64,000 bases of DNA, from positions 124,001-188,000 of the forward strand of contig JAVYNU010000001.1 of assembly GCA_038735125.1 (NCBI GenBank), in the 5' to 3' direction. A model generated the notes under the pieces. It had not been told where the DNA came from and did no database searches. It saw only the letters and a program-made list of their open reading frames with translations. A program made the position numbers and the translations under genes. Source of the stretch: Ignisphaera sp. Lineage in GTDB: Archaea > Thermoproteota > Thermoprotei_A > Sulfolobales > Ignisphaeraceae. Each line of letters begins with the position of its first letter. Positions within the stretch are counted from its first letter, which is position 1. Positions 35,867 to 41,119 of the stretch are shown one piece after another.

Positions 35867-36220
35867 TCATATGCTAAACATAGTATATAAGGCAATTTGC
35901 GAAGTCTCCATGTTTACGTCGTAGCTATGTCTATTTTTCAGCGTTGACCCTAGGTATTTATCCAAGTAGCTGATTTCTTCGTTTACATATCTATAGAGCA
36001 AATCTCCTATGCCATACCCACAGTAGTTGCACTTCCAATGCTTTATCAAATCGATTTCGTTAACCATTGCCATAACTGTGTAGGAGTTTTTCTTGAAACA
36101 TGCAGGACACTCAATCTCTAGTTCAAGGTAGATCCATTTCTCTATCAGGTCTAGCCAGAGAAGCTTTATAGGAGAGATCTCGAAGAAATATCGTGGAATT
36201 TCTATCTCGTAATCGTCCAT
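35867..36220 (-). CDS. Zinc-ribbon hypothetical protein
   Basis: About 117 residues from ATG 36220 (MDDYEIEIPRYFFEISPIKL); the open frame to 36244 would need a TTG start inside the upstream inverted repeat. CPAC and CNYC, about 30 residues apart, should bind zinc. The N-terminal half is hydrophobic and acidic. It is divergent from the 338-residue unknown gene and shares a symmetric promoter region with it. No family is recognised. Confidence 0.6.
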   Translation of the reverse strand: MDDYEIEIPRYFFEISPIKLLWLDLIEKWIYLELEIECPACFKKNSYTVMAMVNEIDLIKHWKCNYCGYGIGDLLYRYVNEEISYLDKYLGSTLKNRHSYDVNMETSQIALYTMFSI

Positions 36221-36238
36221 ATCGCAACACTGCAGTGG

Positions 36239-36267
36239 AAACAAAAATACATGTTATATTTTTGTTT
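36239..36267. repeat. Perfect 11-bp inverted repeat in a divergent promoter
   Basis: Arms AAACAAAAATA (36239-36249) and TATTTTTGTTT (36257-36267) are exact reverse complements around the spacer CATGTTA. Each arm carries a TATA-like element at a suitable distance from one of the two divergent starts (36220 and 36285), so both genes may be near-leaderless and driven from a mirrored promoter. It could also be a dimeric regulator's operator. CTGCAGTGGAAAC immediately to the left resembles part of an origin-recognition box; without the G-rich flank I treat this as weak. Confidence 0.6.
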
Positions 36268-36284: not shown

Positions 36285-37301
36285 ATGTCTCTAAGCAAAT
36301 ATCTTATTACAAGTTCTACCATTGCTTTTTTGTACACCATCTCTAGAGAAGGAAATTTTTCTGAGCACATTAGAGCATTAGAGGTTGTCAACATCGACGA
36401 CGTACAAAGACTCTGTTTCTTGCTTAGAAAATACATTGAATCACTATCATCATTAAAAATGGAGAAGTGTTTAGCTACACCATTAATTGGCGTAGCACCA
36501 TTTCTTGCAAGAAAATATGGTTTAAAGCTCATCACAAACCAAATTATGGTTGTTGGTAAAAGGCCTCTACCTACAGACCCTCATTGTATAGACTGTCTAG
36601 CTTTTGATTCTAGTACATGGATAACAAAAATCTTTAGAGTCTTGAGTAAATGTCTCAAAGTTAGTGAAATACCGATAAGATTTGCTGTATACTATGACCC
36701 TGTTGACCAGTGGCCATTGCTGATAAATTACATACCCATTATAATATTGCTTGACTTCAACTCTTTAATGAATATTAATAAATGTAGAGAAAAGTACATA
36801 GTTCAATTCACAAATTATAGGCTATTCAAAGGTTTGCTACACGATATTAAATCTGTTGAGAGCATGGTTATAACCCCTCATAAAATAGATAAAAGCTATT
36901 TTCAAAATGGAGACTGTAGCCCTATCACATGTTTGGATCCTTCCAAAACTGCACACTACTCTTATGACTCGGAATACAATTTTTTCGAAGAACATTTTCC
37001 AAAGGATAGCAAAGAAAATGGCGACATCGACACGCTGTTCATAGAGTTTTGGAGTTCTCACATATCCTTTGAAGAGACGAACAGAAAGCTAGCGTATATC
37101 TGGTTTTTTAAACCAACGCAACATGTTATTACACAGGTGATAAATAAAATCAAGGGTGTTCGGGTAAAGGAGATCAAAGTTGTGTCGCCACATAAATCCA
37201 TTGCTGAGCTTGGGGCTACACACAACTATAGAATCTGGCTATCGAGCATAATAAAAAGCATTGTAATGAGCTCCAAACCCAAGATAACGCTGATCTCATA
37301 G
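36285..37301 (+). CDS. Hypothetical protein, 338 residues
   Basis: Not recognised. It begins MSLSKYLITSSTIAFLYTIS after a mirrored TATA region. The protein is soluble overall, with a repeated Cys content (DPHCIDCLAF, CSPITCLD) and an alpha/beta C-terminal half (LAYIWFFKPTQHVITQVIN, VKEIKVVSPHKSIAELG). The two CxxC-like clusters could bind metal, but spacing is irregular. It sits in an isolated divergent unit. Confidence 0.6.
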   Translation: MSLSKYLITSSTIAFLYTISREGNFSEHIRALEVVNIDDVQRLCFLLRKYIESLSSLKMEKCLATPLIGVAPFLARKYGLKLITNQIMVVGKRPLPTDPHCIDCLAFDSSTWITKIFRVLSKCLKVSEIPIRFAVYYDPVDQWPLLINYIPIIILLDFNSLMNINKCREKYIVQFTNYRLFKGLLHDIKSVESMVITPHKIDKSYFQNGDCSPITCLDPSKTAHYSYDSEYNFFEEHFPKDSKENGDIDTLFIEFWSSHISFEETNRKLAYIWFFKPTQHVITQVINKIKGVRVKEIKVVSPHKSIAELGATHNYRIWLSSIIKSIVMSSKPKITLIS

Positions 37302-37442: not shown

Positions 37443-38387
37443 TTGATTTATAACAGACTAGGCCAAGCCTCTGAACTGCTTGTCACGGTGATTATAATGA
37501 TTCCCATGGCTTATATAGGACTTCGAGAAATGCTTGATAGCCTAGACAATTCAAAAAATATAATCTTTTTGGAGCCTCTTGTGAAAGATGTTGTAGAGTA
37601 TTATATGGAGCAGTTGCTTAGGGACGGCCTCATCAAATCTTGTGGAGATGGCTATCGCATAGATATCGAAGCTATTGAGAAACTTGTAGATTCTAATCCG
37701 CAGATAGGGTATCTACAAACAAGTCCATATCCTCATATTGGATTCGTTGTGCCGAGTTTCCTCGAGTTTGCGTATAGAATACTCTACGAAGATAAGGTTG
37801 TTTTGCAGGAGCCGGGACTTACATCAGCATTTGTATTCTATGTCAGGAATATTTTAAACTATTTGTGCAAGATGAAACCCGAGATTGTTTTCCTTGTTGA
37901 CACGATACTAGATAGAATCGTCAATGAAAATGGTGAGCTTCTATATGGATACAAGGACATGTATATGATAGAGTCATACCTGTTCTTATCAGATGTTTGC
38001 AACAATGTATTGTTGTACGTGAAAGACTTGCGAAAAACCGAAAAATTGATTGAGAAAATCCTAAACGAGTCAGACAATATCGGTATCGCAATAGATATTG
38101 AAGGCGTGGCTAAAAAGGGTATGTCAGCTAATATTATGGAGATAATTAAAAGCAGGGTTAAGAAGCCAGCCATAGGAGTTGTCATGCCTATACAAATACA
38201 AAAATATGTAGATGATGGTGAGAAGAGGGCTCTGCAAAAGCTGTTTAGCATATATGGAGGTGATATGATTGTTATACTAGCAAATGCAAGACCAATTACA
38301 GAGCCTCTTGCAGAGAAACTAGAACCAGATCCAATACACAGATTTATAAGCTATATAGAGGAGATCCTCAGCCAAGCGAGGTTTTAG
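37443..38387 (+). CDS. Hypothetical protein, 314 residues, upstream of ubiquitin-like gene
   Basis: Not recognised. Predicted alpha/beta protein with an early winged-helix-like stretch (DVVEYYMEQLLRDGLIKSCG) and a C-terminal part with AIGVVMPIQIQKYVDDGEKR and GGDMIVILANARPI. The TTG start at 37443 is weak; internal ATGs at 37497 or 37506 are possible. It ends five bases before the ubiquitin-like gene, which strongly suggests translational coupling and a shared function. Confidence 0.6.
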   Translation: MIYNRLGQASELLVTVIIMIPMAYIGLREMLDSLDNSKNIIFLEPLVKDVVEYYMEQLLRDGLIKSCGDGYRIDIEAIEKLVDSNPQIGYLQTSPYPHIGFVVPSFLEFAYRILYEDKVVLQEPGLTSAFVFYVRNILNYLCKMKPEIVFLVDTILDRIVNENGELLYGYKDMYMIESYLFLSDVCNNVLLYVKDLRKTEKLIEKILNESDNIGIAIDIEGVAKKGMSANIMEIIKSRVKKPAIGVVMPIQIQKYVDDGEKRALQKLFSIYGGDMIVILANARPITEPLAEKLEPDPIHRFISYIEEILSQARF

Positions 38388-38392
38388 AAATT

Positions 38393-38638
38393 ATGAAAAA
38401 GGTTATTGTAAAACTTATTGGGTTCAAAGATCTGCAAAACAGATATTTGGAGATTTTGCTAGATGAGGACTCAACTGTTTCCCAGCTTGTTAACAAATTT
38501 CTCCAGATGGCGAGTGTATCTGAAATGAATGGAGATGAAATTATGGTGATGTGCAATAACAAACAGCTCTACCCGGATGATAAAGTCCCTGAAGATTGTC
38601 AAACAATTGAGTTATTCCCATTTGCTAGCGGGGGGTAA
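38393..38638 (+). CDS. Ubiquitin-like beta-grasp protein with C-terminal Gly-Gly (MoaD/ThiS/SAMP type)
   Basis: 81 residues with a beta-grasp pattern: KKVIVKLIGFKDL, a helix SQLVNKFLQMASV, EIMVMCNNKQLYPDD, and the end TIELFPFASGG. The diglycine terminus is what E1-like enzymes adenylate for sulfur transfer (MoaD, ThiS) or protein conjugation (SAMP, Urm1). No E1-like gene is in the window. It is five bases behind the 314-residue unknown gene and 37 bases before an aldo-keto reductase homologue, so the three probably share a transcript. Confidence 0.82.
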   Translation: MKKVIVKLIGFKDLQNRYLEILLDEDSTVSQLVNKFLQMASVSEMNGDEIMVMCNNKQLYPDDKVPEDCQTIELFPFASGG

Positions 38639-38675
38639 AACACTTTTATAGCGATGATTTGCATCGTGATTAGAT

Positions 38676-39491
38676 ATGTCCAGCCAGGTCAACGTAGATC
38701 TTAGAAAAGTTCTTGGAAAAACGGGTGTGAAGGTCTCTCCAATAGGTTTTGGAACTCTTAATATAAGGGATTTCATAAATGCTGAGAAAGCCCTGTTAAA
38801 AGCTGTTGAATATGGCATAAACGTATTTGAAGTCTCAGAGACATATGCAAATGGGCTAGCCTTAGACTATTTTGGAAGATTTCTCGCTAAGATTAAAAGA
38901 GACGATGTTTTCATAGTATTTAGAATCTCACCACTAATTTTAGCTGATCCAGATAGTTTCGAGGCAAAGTTCAGTAAGTTTCTTCAAAAAATGAACACCT
39001 CTTATGTTGACGCCTTAATGATTGGCTGGTACGAAGATGCAATACCGTTGGAGACACAACTAACATCTTTAGAGAGAGCTATTGAGAGAGGCTATGCTAA
39101 GTTTATTGGGGTAAGCGGTTTTAAAGTCAAGCAAATTGCCAGAGTTTTGAACATGCCAAAGAAATATGAAATTTCTTTGATTCAAAGCAGATATAATGTG
39201 ATAGACAAGCGCATAGAAAAAGATGTGCTGCCATTTGCCATAGAAAACAACATGGCTGTGCTAGCCTGTTCAGCTCTTGACAGAGGTCAAGCAATCCGAC
39301 ACCCAGTGGTTATGCATATTGCGAGCAAGTACAATGCAACTGGGGCCCAAATCGCCATAAGCTATGTTATTTCAAACCCAAATGTTATTGCTCTTGTAAA
39401 AAGTGAGAATATAGATCATGTAGTCGAGAATACCACGGCCCCCAGAACCATGTTGAAAGAAGAAGATTTAAGTGTTCTAAGGTCAATATAG
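38676..39491 (+). CDS. Aldo-keto reductase-fold protein lacking most of the catalytic tetrad
   Basis: TIM-barrel protein of the AKR superfamily: KTGVKVSPIGFGTLNIR, GVSGFKVKQIARVL, ISLIQSRYNVIDK and ALDRGQAI map onto the usual strands, 271 residues. The catalytic Asp is Glu (VFEVSETYANG), Tyr is kept, Lys is replaced by Arg (FIVFRISP), and His is replaced by Gly (LMIGWYED). Standard carbonyl reduction is therefore doubtful. It follows the ubiquitin-like gene and precedes MEMO by 17 bases. Confidence 0.85.
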   Translation: MSSQVNVDLRKVLGKTGVKVSPIGFGTLNIRDFINAEKALLKAVEYGINVFEVSETYANGLALDYFGRFLAKIKRDDVFIVFRISPLILADPDSFEAKFSKFLQKMNTSYVDALMIGWYEDAIPLETQLTSLERAIERGYAKFIGVSGFKVKQIARVLNMPKKYEISLIQSRYNVIDKRIEKDVLPFAIENNMAVLACSALDRGQAIRHPVVMHIASKYNATGAQIAISYVISNPNVIALVKSENIDHVVENTTAPRTMLKEEDLSVLRSI

Positions 39492-39508
39492 TGATAGAGT
39501 GATGAGAT

Positions 39509-40417
39509 TTGAACGGAGATAGAGATACTGTTAGAGAGCCTCAAGCCGCTGCATGGGGTTTTTATCCATTCAATAAAGGCCAGCTTGTAAAAGAATTGGA
39601 AAGAGCTTTCACAAACACTAGATTTGGTCCAGGGGCTCTTCCGAGCAAAAAGCAAGGTGAATTAACAATAATTGGTGGTGTTGTACCACATGCTGGCTAT
39701 AGCTATTCGGCTTCTTGTGCTGCATGGTTCTACAAGGAGCTCGCCGAAAATAAACCAGCTGTAGAAACTGTGATCCTTCTTGGAACAAATCATACTGGTT
39801 TTGGAAAGACGATAACAACTTCAACTTATTACACTACATGGGCAACGCCACTTGGAGGTGTGAATATCGATGTCGAGTTCATCAATAAATTGAAGAAGGA
39901 GTACCCACCTCTAGATGATGATGCACTTGCACATACTAGAGAACATTCATTAGAGGTTCAACTCCCATTCTTACAGTATGTATACGGGGACAAGTTCAGA
40001 ATTGTGCCTATCGTCGTAAAGGATCTTATTTATCAAGAGGCCAGAGATTTTGCTGAGGCGTTGAAAAGAGTTGTAGATGATCTAAAAAGAGATGTTATAG
40101 TTATAGCGTCATCCGATTTCACACACCACGGCTCTATATATGGCTATGTTCTTTTCAATTCAAATATATCTCAAAATGTCAGAGAATTGGATAGGAAGTT
40201 CATAGACGCTATAATAGAGCTTGATACAAGAAGGTTCCTCAAATTGATAGAAGAATACAACGCAACTGTATGCGGGTTTGGGGCAATAGCTATTGCTATG
40301 GAGTATACAAAGCTGTTAAATGGAAAGGCAAAGCTGTTGAAGTATTATCACTCAGCCGATGTTACAGAAGATGAAGATGTTGTTGTTGGATATGCATCAA
40401 TATTGTTCTACAAATAA
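39509..40417 (+). CDS. MEMO family protein
   Basis: MEMO1-like fold related to class III ring-opening dioxygenases. It has VVPHAGYSYSASCAAWFYKE with the first His, LGTNHTGFGKTITTSTYY, HTREHSLEVQLPFLQYV, SSDFTHHGSIYGY with further His residues, and a Cys in ATVCGFGAIAIA. In many archaea memo lies beside mevalonate-pathway genes; here mevalonate kinase is 0.7 kb away on the other strand. TTG start at 39509. 302 residues. Confidence 0.9.
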   Translation: MNGDRDTVREPQAAAWGFYPFNKGQLVKELERAFTNTRFGPGALPSKKQGELTIIGGVVPHAGYSYSASCAAWFYKELAENKPAVETVILLGTNHTGFGKTITTSTYYTTWATPLGGVNIDVEFINKLKKEYPPLDDDALAHTREHSLEVQLPFLQYVYGDKFRIVPIVVKDLIYQEARDFAEALKRVVDDLKRDVIVIASSDFTHHGSIYGYVLFNSNISQNVRELDRKFIDAIIELDTRRFLKLIEEYNATVCGFGAIAIAMEYTKLLNGKAKLLKYYHSADVTEDEDVVVGYASILFYK

Positions 40418-40420
40418 GGA

Positions 40421-41119
40421 TTACTTTATGTAGCATCTATTATCAATTCTTTTTAGTTCTAGAGAATCAATATAAACATCTATATTGGATAGAAAATCAT
40501 TTAAAAACCTCACAGAAACAATTGGAACCCCCTCAAAAACCCATGTTGATGAGGTATAAAGTGTTATTACTATGGGTATAAAAAGCTTTGTTTTGCGGAT
40601 TGCGGGAACCTCAGATGCCACCCACTCACAGTATTTCACCAGCTTGTCTATTCTAGTCATATGCTCTCTAACAATCTTAGAGACAGAGGATTGCCCGATG
40701 CGGCGCCTCCAATGCTTACACTCGATAATGTACCCCATTTTCTTAACCATATCAAGGGCTAGTACATCTATTTGGAATTGCGATATTCTTTTATGTGTAT
40801 AGCCAGATACGTAATCAAGTCCAGCAGACTTTAGCCTTGCTGCTATATAATCTTCAAATTCCTTCCACTCTATATAGCTGGCGAATCTCATAACATCTAC
40901 AACCATTTTTTCTTCTATCAGTAAGAGAAGTTCAAGTGGATTCACTAAGCTGATTCGACTATCGCTAATAGCTATGCATCCTCTTTTCAAACCATCTACA
41001 AAAATCTCCTCTACAAGATTTCTGTCAATGGGCTTCAAAAGCTTTACAAACTCTGGTTCAAGTGCCTTGTATCTAAACAAGTGTTCTAGCACATCACCAA
41101 CTGTTATGTAGCTTGTCAT
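40421..41119 (-). CDS. PD-(D/E)XK nuclease-like protein
   Basis: 232 residues. The C-terminal part has the restriction-endonuclease-like core: WKEFEDYIAARLKSAGLDYV, then QIDVLALDM...GYIIECKHWRRR, giving the D and ECK catalytic residues. The N-terminal half looks like a winged helix with LVEEIFVDGLKRGCIAIS. It is probably a DNA nuclease of unknown role, a single-copy housekeeping type rather than a restriction enzyme, since no methylase is near. It lies four bases after mevalonate kinase. Confidence 0.8.
   Translation of the reverse strand: MTSYITVGDVLEHLFRYKALEPEFVKLLKPIDRNLVEEIFVDGLKRGCIAISDSRISLVNPLELLLLIEEKMVVDVMRFASYIEWKEFEDYIAARLKSAGLDYVSGYTHKRISQFQIDVLALDMVKKMGYIIECKHWRRRIGQSSVSKIVREHMTRIDKLVKYCEWVASEVPAIRKTKLFIPIVITLYTSSTWVFEGVPIVSVRFLNDFLSNIDVYIDSLELKRIDNRCYIK

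Follow-up and report, generated by a model that had tools for sequence, protein, structure and literature searches.

A ubiquitin-like protein ending in Gly-Gly, encoded in a conserved Ignisphaera-type gene neighbourhood, as a candidate sulfur carrier

The locus and its conservation

The window analysed here is a stretch of 64,000 nucleotides (G000:C1:124001-188000) from the 1.8-Mb archaeal genome G000. It holds four consecutive plus-strand open reading frames (ORFs), separated by 5, 37 and 17 bases as the initial annotation had described, which encode a methionine-synthase (MetE) relative called U314, a ubiquitin-like protein (Ubl) ending in Gly-Gly, an aldo-keto reductase (AKR)-fold protein and MEMO. 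We describe Ubl as a candidate sulfur carrier in a neighbourhood that recurs across a genus-level clade of 11 species (G000-G010, labelled Ignisphaera type and called the genus below), in which G005 is the sister of the window genome. The features of the locus are:

36285..37301, plus strand: U338, a clade-specific protein of 338 residues
37410..37418, plus strand: TATA-like element TTTTAAATA, spotted by eye upstream of the MetE-like gene U314
37443-38387, plus strand: U314 as first listed, from a TTG start, 314 residues
37497..38387, plus strand: U314 from the probable, corrected ATG start, 296 residues, a predicted MetE-superfamily barrel that lacks zinc ligands
38393..38638, plus strand: Ubl, an 81-residue Gly-Gly beta-grasp protein with invariant C54 and C69
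38643..38650, plus strand: TATA-like element CTTTTATA, about 29 bases ahead of the AKR start
38676..39491, plus strand: AKR-fold protein with the degenerate tetrad E-Y-R-G
39509..40417, plus strand: MEMO, AmmeMemoRadiSam system protein B
40421-41119, minus strand: Mrr-like nuclease, adjoining mevalonate kinase
35867-36244, minus strand: small zinc-ribbon protein, adjoining U338

The first of the four ORFs exists and lies 5 bases from Ubl as annotated, but the length of 314 residues given to its product is probably too great. In sister genome G005 the stretch that a start at TTG 37443 would add contains a stop codon, so this start is probably wrong, and translation probably begins at ATG 37497, which is preceded by GGTG. 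The element CTTTTATA is present in the window and in G005 and unclear in other species; AKR and MEMO may form a separate transcription unit.

In neighbourhood maps of all 11 genus genomes AKR and MEMO are followed, on the opposite strand, by the Mrr-like nuclease and mevalonate kinase, an odd yet stable place for such a nuclease. Upstream of AKR-MEMO, six species (G000, G005, G006, G004, G010 and G002) have U338, U314 and Ubl; G007 and G008 have U338, U240 (a protein described below) and Ubl; in G001 and G003 the genes are Ubl and U338, the latter inverted; and G009 has U338, U240 and U314, with its Ubl gene at another place. The 5-base spacing between U314 and Ubl is shared with G005, and the spacing is short in four further species. 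Between G000 and G005 the ratio of non-synonymous to synonymous substitution (dN/dS) is 0.29 for U314, 0.15 for Ubl, 0.18 for AKR, 0.11 for MEMO and 0.26 for the first part of U338, so that all five genes are constrained by purifying selection. These ratios, together with the recurrence across the genus, place the neighbourhood beyond chance. The gene order is thus kept within the genus, but with Ubl displaced in G009 and U314 undetected in four of the 11 genomes, and a sample of 229 genomes of the class yields no such cluster outside the family: the conserved neighbourhood is confined to one genus-level clade.

The ubiquitin-like protein family

The window Ubl, with the C-terminus ...FPFASGG, matches Pfam ThiS (PF02597) with an E-value of 2.8e-4 and 21.8 bits, 0.7 bits short of the curated cut-off of 22.5, and its profile matches that of TtuB at E 7.6e-8; the initial assignment of an 81-residue, Gly-Gly-ended beta-grasp protein is borne out. 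Both the Gly-Gly and two cysteines, C54 and C69, are invariant across the family (alignment A4), which the profile detects in each of the 11 genus genomes and also in G014; the closest relatives among named records come from Ignisphaera and from Desulfurococcales or Thermoproteota metagenome genomes. Among PDB sequences the profile's sole beta-grasp match is a weak one, Pyrococcus SAMP2 (E 0.2), and the Urm1 of Sulfolobus, likewise a crenarchaeal beta-grasp Ubl, with a different gene neighbourhood (PMC4569737, PMC12645042), is not returned. The nearest paralogue (E 5.8e-9), in G006, adjoins an aldehyde ferredoxin oxidoreductase (AOR) gene.

Fold, length and Gly-Gly end are also those of MoaD, including the AOR-associated forms. 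Unlike MoaD, Ubl stands apart from MoaE, AOR and other cofactor genes in the genus neighbourhoods mapped, and G000 encodes separate proteins for these roles, a MoaD-MoaE fusion (at G000:C10) and, on our reading of the sequence, a MoaD adjoining an AOR gene. Because these are present the window Ubl is judged not to be an ordinary MoaD, the identification that would have undone the initial proposal. With the tRNA 2-thiolation carriers TtuB, SAMP2 and UblA it has in common the beta-grasp profile and Gly-Gly, and its genome has E1, TtuA and JAMM; it differs from them in its two invariant cysteines, its 81 as against about 70 residues, the lack of an adjoining TtuA or E1 and, for half of the species, a C-terminal tail. 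By sequence, then, Ubl is a separate family of the beta-grasp sulfur-carrier kind, distinct from ordinary MoaD. A direct orthology with TtuB was rejected, since the window Ubl is not among the G000 matches of the TtuB profile (A7) and neither TtuA nor E1 adjoins it.

Several Ubl loci have other company. In G014 Ubl adjoins a ThiR-type regulator, a helix-turn-helix (HTH)-ThiN protein, and ThiD-ThiN (L017:2539-5422), and in G009 the genes around it include those for a Thi4-like protein and for a relative of the G014 regulator, another HTH protein (L064:3396-7046). Three genes lie together in G115 (L178:3334-4993), coding for a macrodomain-like protein, a Ubl of ThiS/MoaD type and an MTHFR-like protein, and adjoin a core methionine synthase gene with a corrinoid-protein gene.

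In six of the 12 genomes that encode Ubl (11 of the genus and G014) the protein continues past Gly-Gly, by 5 residues in G005, 4 in G004, about 30 in G010, 1 in G014, 6 in G001 and 2 in G003, while in the window genome and in G006, G002, G007, G008 and G009 the stop codon follows Gly-Gly directly. The tails are species-specific (loci L060, L061, L012, L013, L010 and L017). E1 enzymes require a free C-terminal Gly, and the tailed forms would therefore need to be cut.

Candidate partners elsewhere in the genome

No E1-like or molybdopterin gene had been seen near the four ORFs, which is true of the neighbouring genes examined, but besides the MoaD-MoaE fusion the genome encodes two E1-like (ThiF-family) proteins outside the Ubl neighbourhood, and the absence of a nearby E1 is for this reason not telling. 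Most members of the order, and three genomes from the family to which the genus belongs, have strong matches to the TtuB profile A7. In the genus the profile finds no TtuB in any of the 11 genomes, the best matches being MoaD-like or MoaD-MoaE proteins at E 5.8e-8 or weaker. TtuA is nevertheless retained in nine of the 11, and no Gly-Gly ORF was found beside it in the genus genomes. TtuB lies directly upstream of TtuA in G014, G019, G021 and G023, with the order M28-like, TtuB, TtuA, E1 in G014; in G000 the same M28-like gene is followed directly by E1, and TtuA, at G000:C2:34788, is on a different contig.

Directly after TtuA, overlapping or abutting it, an ORF for a JAMM/MPN+ protease is present in G000, G005, G010, G002 and G004. 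Its signature residues (E, HxH, S and D), which include all those for metal binding and catalysis, are invariant in alignment A8, and it matches PF14464 (Prok-JAB) at E 4.3e-10. Remote JAMM relatives are encoded next to E1 in G033 and, in G042, next to a MoaD-MoaE gene. The TtuA-JAMM loci themselves (L217:1064-2472 in G000:C2, L214, L219, L220 and L222) have no adjoining Ubl gene.

The neighbouring proteins

U314 has no family match in Pfam or NCBIfam, and the initial annotation had left it as an unknown protein that could be a ligase, target or chaperone of Ubl. Aligned by hhalign with core-MetE alignments it gives E-values of 2.5e-14 and 4e-14, and its AlphaFold model (pLDDT 86.2, pTM 0.87) retrieves MetE and UROD structures from the PDB by Foldseek, with MetE 1t7l at E 6.3e-5 and TMq 0.61. 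The U314 profile also reaches ORFs of 310-360 residues, among which G014:C16 matches PF01717 (cobalamin-independent methionine synthase) at E 1.2e-8; such MetE-like ORFs, as judged by eye, adjoin corrinoid-protein-like genes in G014 and G115. The zinc-ligand motifs of core-MetE relatives (HVC, EFHD and ADCGF) have no counterpart in U314, in which none of the ligands (H-C-E/D-C) is found at the aligned positions. By sequence profile and predicted fold U314 is a MetE-superfamily barrel without zinc ligands, which leaves a ligase role unsupported; nor did its sequence give a family match that would point to a ligase, target or chaperone. U314 thus has its barrel superfamily in common with the core methionine synthases (the MetE catalytic domain and MesA-MesD), but all zinc ligands are gone and no corrinoid gene adjoins it. 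Loss of catalysis in the superfamily has a precedent in the zinc-less MesB-like proteins of Chloroflexales (PMC7857596). In G140, from another family of the order, a 314-residue MetE-like protein has partly lost the HVC, EFHD and CGF motifs (L182:5096-6040).

Beyond seven of the 11 genus genomes U314 is detected in G011, G014, G015 and G017, and there, unlike the core methionine synthases and MesB-like proteins, it is paired with U240, a winged-helix protein with a dCTP-deaminase-like part. The C-terminal part of U240 matches dCTP deaminases of the whole class and, weakly, dUTPases. The two genes are adjacent, nearly always overlapping, in G009, G011, G014 and G015 and are neighbours in G017 (L015:5988-7620, L016:1313-2897, L017:1-1551, L169:2704-4228 and L170:5465-6998), from which we take U240-U314 to be the more ancient pair in this family, with U240 lost in G000. 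The pair, of which we know no earlier description, resembles a regulator whose sensor derives from an enzyme. A dCTP deaminase of G041 has weak HTH matches in its central part, perhaps an inserted winged helix (L173:3849-4592).

The AKR-fold protein matches Aldo_ket_red (PF00248) at 5e-35. It had been described as lacking the catalytic tetrad, which is right for three of the four positions, where D-Y-K-H has become E-Y-R-G with the loss of D, K and H, but the Tyr is retained. Ten of the 11 genus copies are degenerate (E-Y-R-G/A/D or E-Y-K-Y), whereas D-Y-K-H is intact in relatives from the order and in the G009 copy, which stands next to MEMO at the same locus and is 41% identical to the window protein. 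Gene trees split degenerate from intact copies with 92-94% support in one analysis and 0.91 in another, a pattern consistent with one loss of the tetrad and further decay thereafter; because the genus tree places G009 with only 78% support, it is on the AKR gene trees that a single loss rests. The tetrad is lost in exactly the ten species with Ubl at the locus and kept in G009, where Ubl is elsewhere, a correlation that is one evolutionary event and may be a coincidence. MEMO, correctly identified at the outset, matches Memo at 1.2e-67 and TIGR04336 (AmmeMemoRadiSam_B) at 7.8e-83, with 277.8 bits against a cut-off of 26, and by sequence is an unremarkable AmmeMemoRadiSam-B protein encoded close to mevalonate kinase.

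The U338 profile finds all 11 genus genomes and remote copies in G014 and G015 only. In G005 (L010:5542-6600) the reading frame shifts near residue 235, either genuinely or through a fault of assembly. The fairly confident AlphaFold model (pLDDT 81) is of a two-domain protein with no fold match in the PDB below E 1e-3; searches of Pfam, NCBIfam and PDB sequences give nothing convincing, the best PDB sequence match, a yeast-type Paf1-complex fragment at E 0.04, being judged chance, and profile-profile comparison with the MetE-like and U240 families is negative. A zinc-ribbon protein like the neighbour of U338 lies near a U314 fragment in G014 (L175:1061-1369). An anti-phage Ubl/E1/JAMM system was considered and rejected, as PADLOC gives no match for U338, U314, Ubl or AKR and a weak one for the Mrr-like nuclease only.

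A proposed role and its alternatives

Since TtuA is kept, TtuB is undetected and no Gly-Gly ORF lies beside TtuA, the window Ubl is the best remaining candidate for the TtuA carrier. We favour, tentatively and with confidence just short of even, the view that Ubl is a sulfur carrier which replaces the TtuB lost in the genus and is sometimes made as a precursor, a role that we infer from the sequences, their distributions, the lost catalytic residues, the presence of E1, TtuA and JAMM and the lack of a detectable TtuB. The E1-like enzyme G000:C1:240241 would adenylate the C-terminal Gly of Ubl, a thiocarboxylate would then form, and Ubl would take the place of TtuB as the carrier from which TtuA transfers sulfur to tRNA. 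Tailed precursors would be cut after Gly-Gly, and the JAMM/MPN+ protease whose gene accompanies TtuA is a plausible candidate for this step. Ubl may also be conjugated to proteins, as other archaeal Ubls are, and the MetE-like and AKR-like proteins may be binding or regulatory proteins, or mere neighbours. Thermococcus kodakarensis offers a precedent, in that its three Ubls have overlapping parts in tungsten cofactor synthesis, one of them works in tRNA thiolation, each is conjugated to proteins and a single E1 is thought to activate all three (PMC11323500). In a survey of archaeal Ubl genes the commonest links were with tRNA modification or molybdenum/tungsten cofactor genes, and function was noted to switch easily (PMC2948915). 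Sulfolobus Urm1 is conjugated to proteins (PMC4569737), and when moved into yeast it supports conjugation and not tRNA thiolation (PMC12645042).

Several observations weigh against this role. G014 holds both TtuB and Ubl, so replacement of TtuB cannot have been the original role of Ubl, and G007 and G008 keep Ubl without the closer TtuA, having only a more remote paralogue. In no genome examined is the Ubl gene linked to TtuA, E1 or JAMM, while thiamine-related genes are found near it in G014 and G009. The tail in G005 hinges on a stretch of G that differs by one base, and across species tails do not track the JAMM gene adjoining TtuA, so that a connection between the protease and the tails is conjectural. 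Sulfide-rich archaea, moreover, may thiolate tRNA without a Ubl (PMC11323500).

The alternatives are not mutually exclusive, and confidence in them need not sum to one. The strongest is that there is no functional cluster, the genes being unrelated and gathered, in part as fast-evolving remnants, beside the AKR-MEMO-mevalonate kinase block. Gene content does vary between species, U338 is frame-shifted in G005, and the MetE-like gene, fastest-evolving of the set by its dN/dS, stands in G000 without the U240 that is its direct neighbour elsewhere in the family; yet every gene is under purifying selection, and Ubl and U338 persist in all 11 species, which leaves this a real possibility but a doubtful one. 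It can be reconciled with Ubl as a working sulfur carrier. Of what was first proposed, a ubiquitin-like modification or sulfur-carrier cluster, there remains a Ubl of the sulfur-carrier kind in a recurrent neighbourhood, while the ligase partner is unsupported.

That Ubl is a dedicated protein modifier of the SAMP/Urm1 kind, removed by JAMM and with the two neighbouring pseudoenzymes, MetE-like and AKR-like, serving it as adaptors or targets, we think unlikely. The close spacing of Ubl and the MetE-like gene, the coincidence of AKR decay with Ubl at the locus, the presence of JAMM and the modification of proteins by Sulfolobus Urm1 (PMC4569737) are all in its favour. The AKR correlation is nonetheless one event, possibly coincidental, four Ubl-keeping species have no detected MetE-like gene, and in the window AKR is preceded by a TATA-like element of its own. 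A combined form, in which Ubl, from a JAMM-cut tailed precursor in some species, acts on or through the two barrels, which would have lost catalysis on turning into Ubl-binding adaptors or regulators, seems very unlikely. Ubl might instead be a diverged MoaD supplying sulfur for the tungsten or molybdenum cofactor, as its length, a profile near that of MoaD, the AOR gene beside its nearest paralogue and the partial redundancy of archaeal Ubls in tungsten cofactor synthesis (PMC11323500) would suggest; we consider this distinctly unlikely in a genome that already has two MoaD proteins and with cofactor genes not adjoining Ubl in the genus. Least probable is a part, as sulfur donor or regulator, in thiamine synthesis: the regulator and ThiD-ThiN in G014 and the Thi4-like and related HTH proteins in G009 point that way, but such genes are not seen at the Ubl loci of the other ten genomes, and the Thi4 characterised from archaea draws on sulfide or on a Cys of its own (PMC8454699, PMC4215014).

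Implications

The protein first listed as unknown can now be read as a methionine-synthase relative without catalytic residues, and its pairing with a winged-helix protein in the wider family may point to a sensor or regulator made from an old enzyme. The Ubl is a prokaryotic family half of whose members extend past Gly-Gly in a tail, like eukaryotic Ubl precursors. If the sulfur-carrier role is true, the genus would provide a concrete and testable case of one archaeal Ubl taking over from another, in that TtuA was retained while its carrier disappeared.

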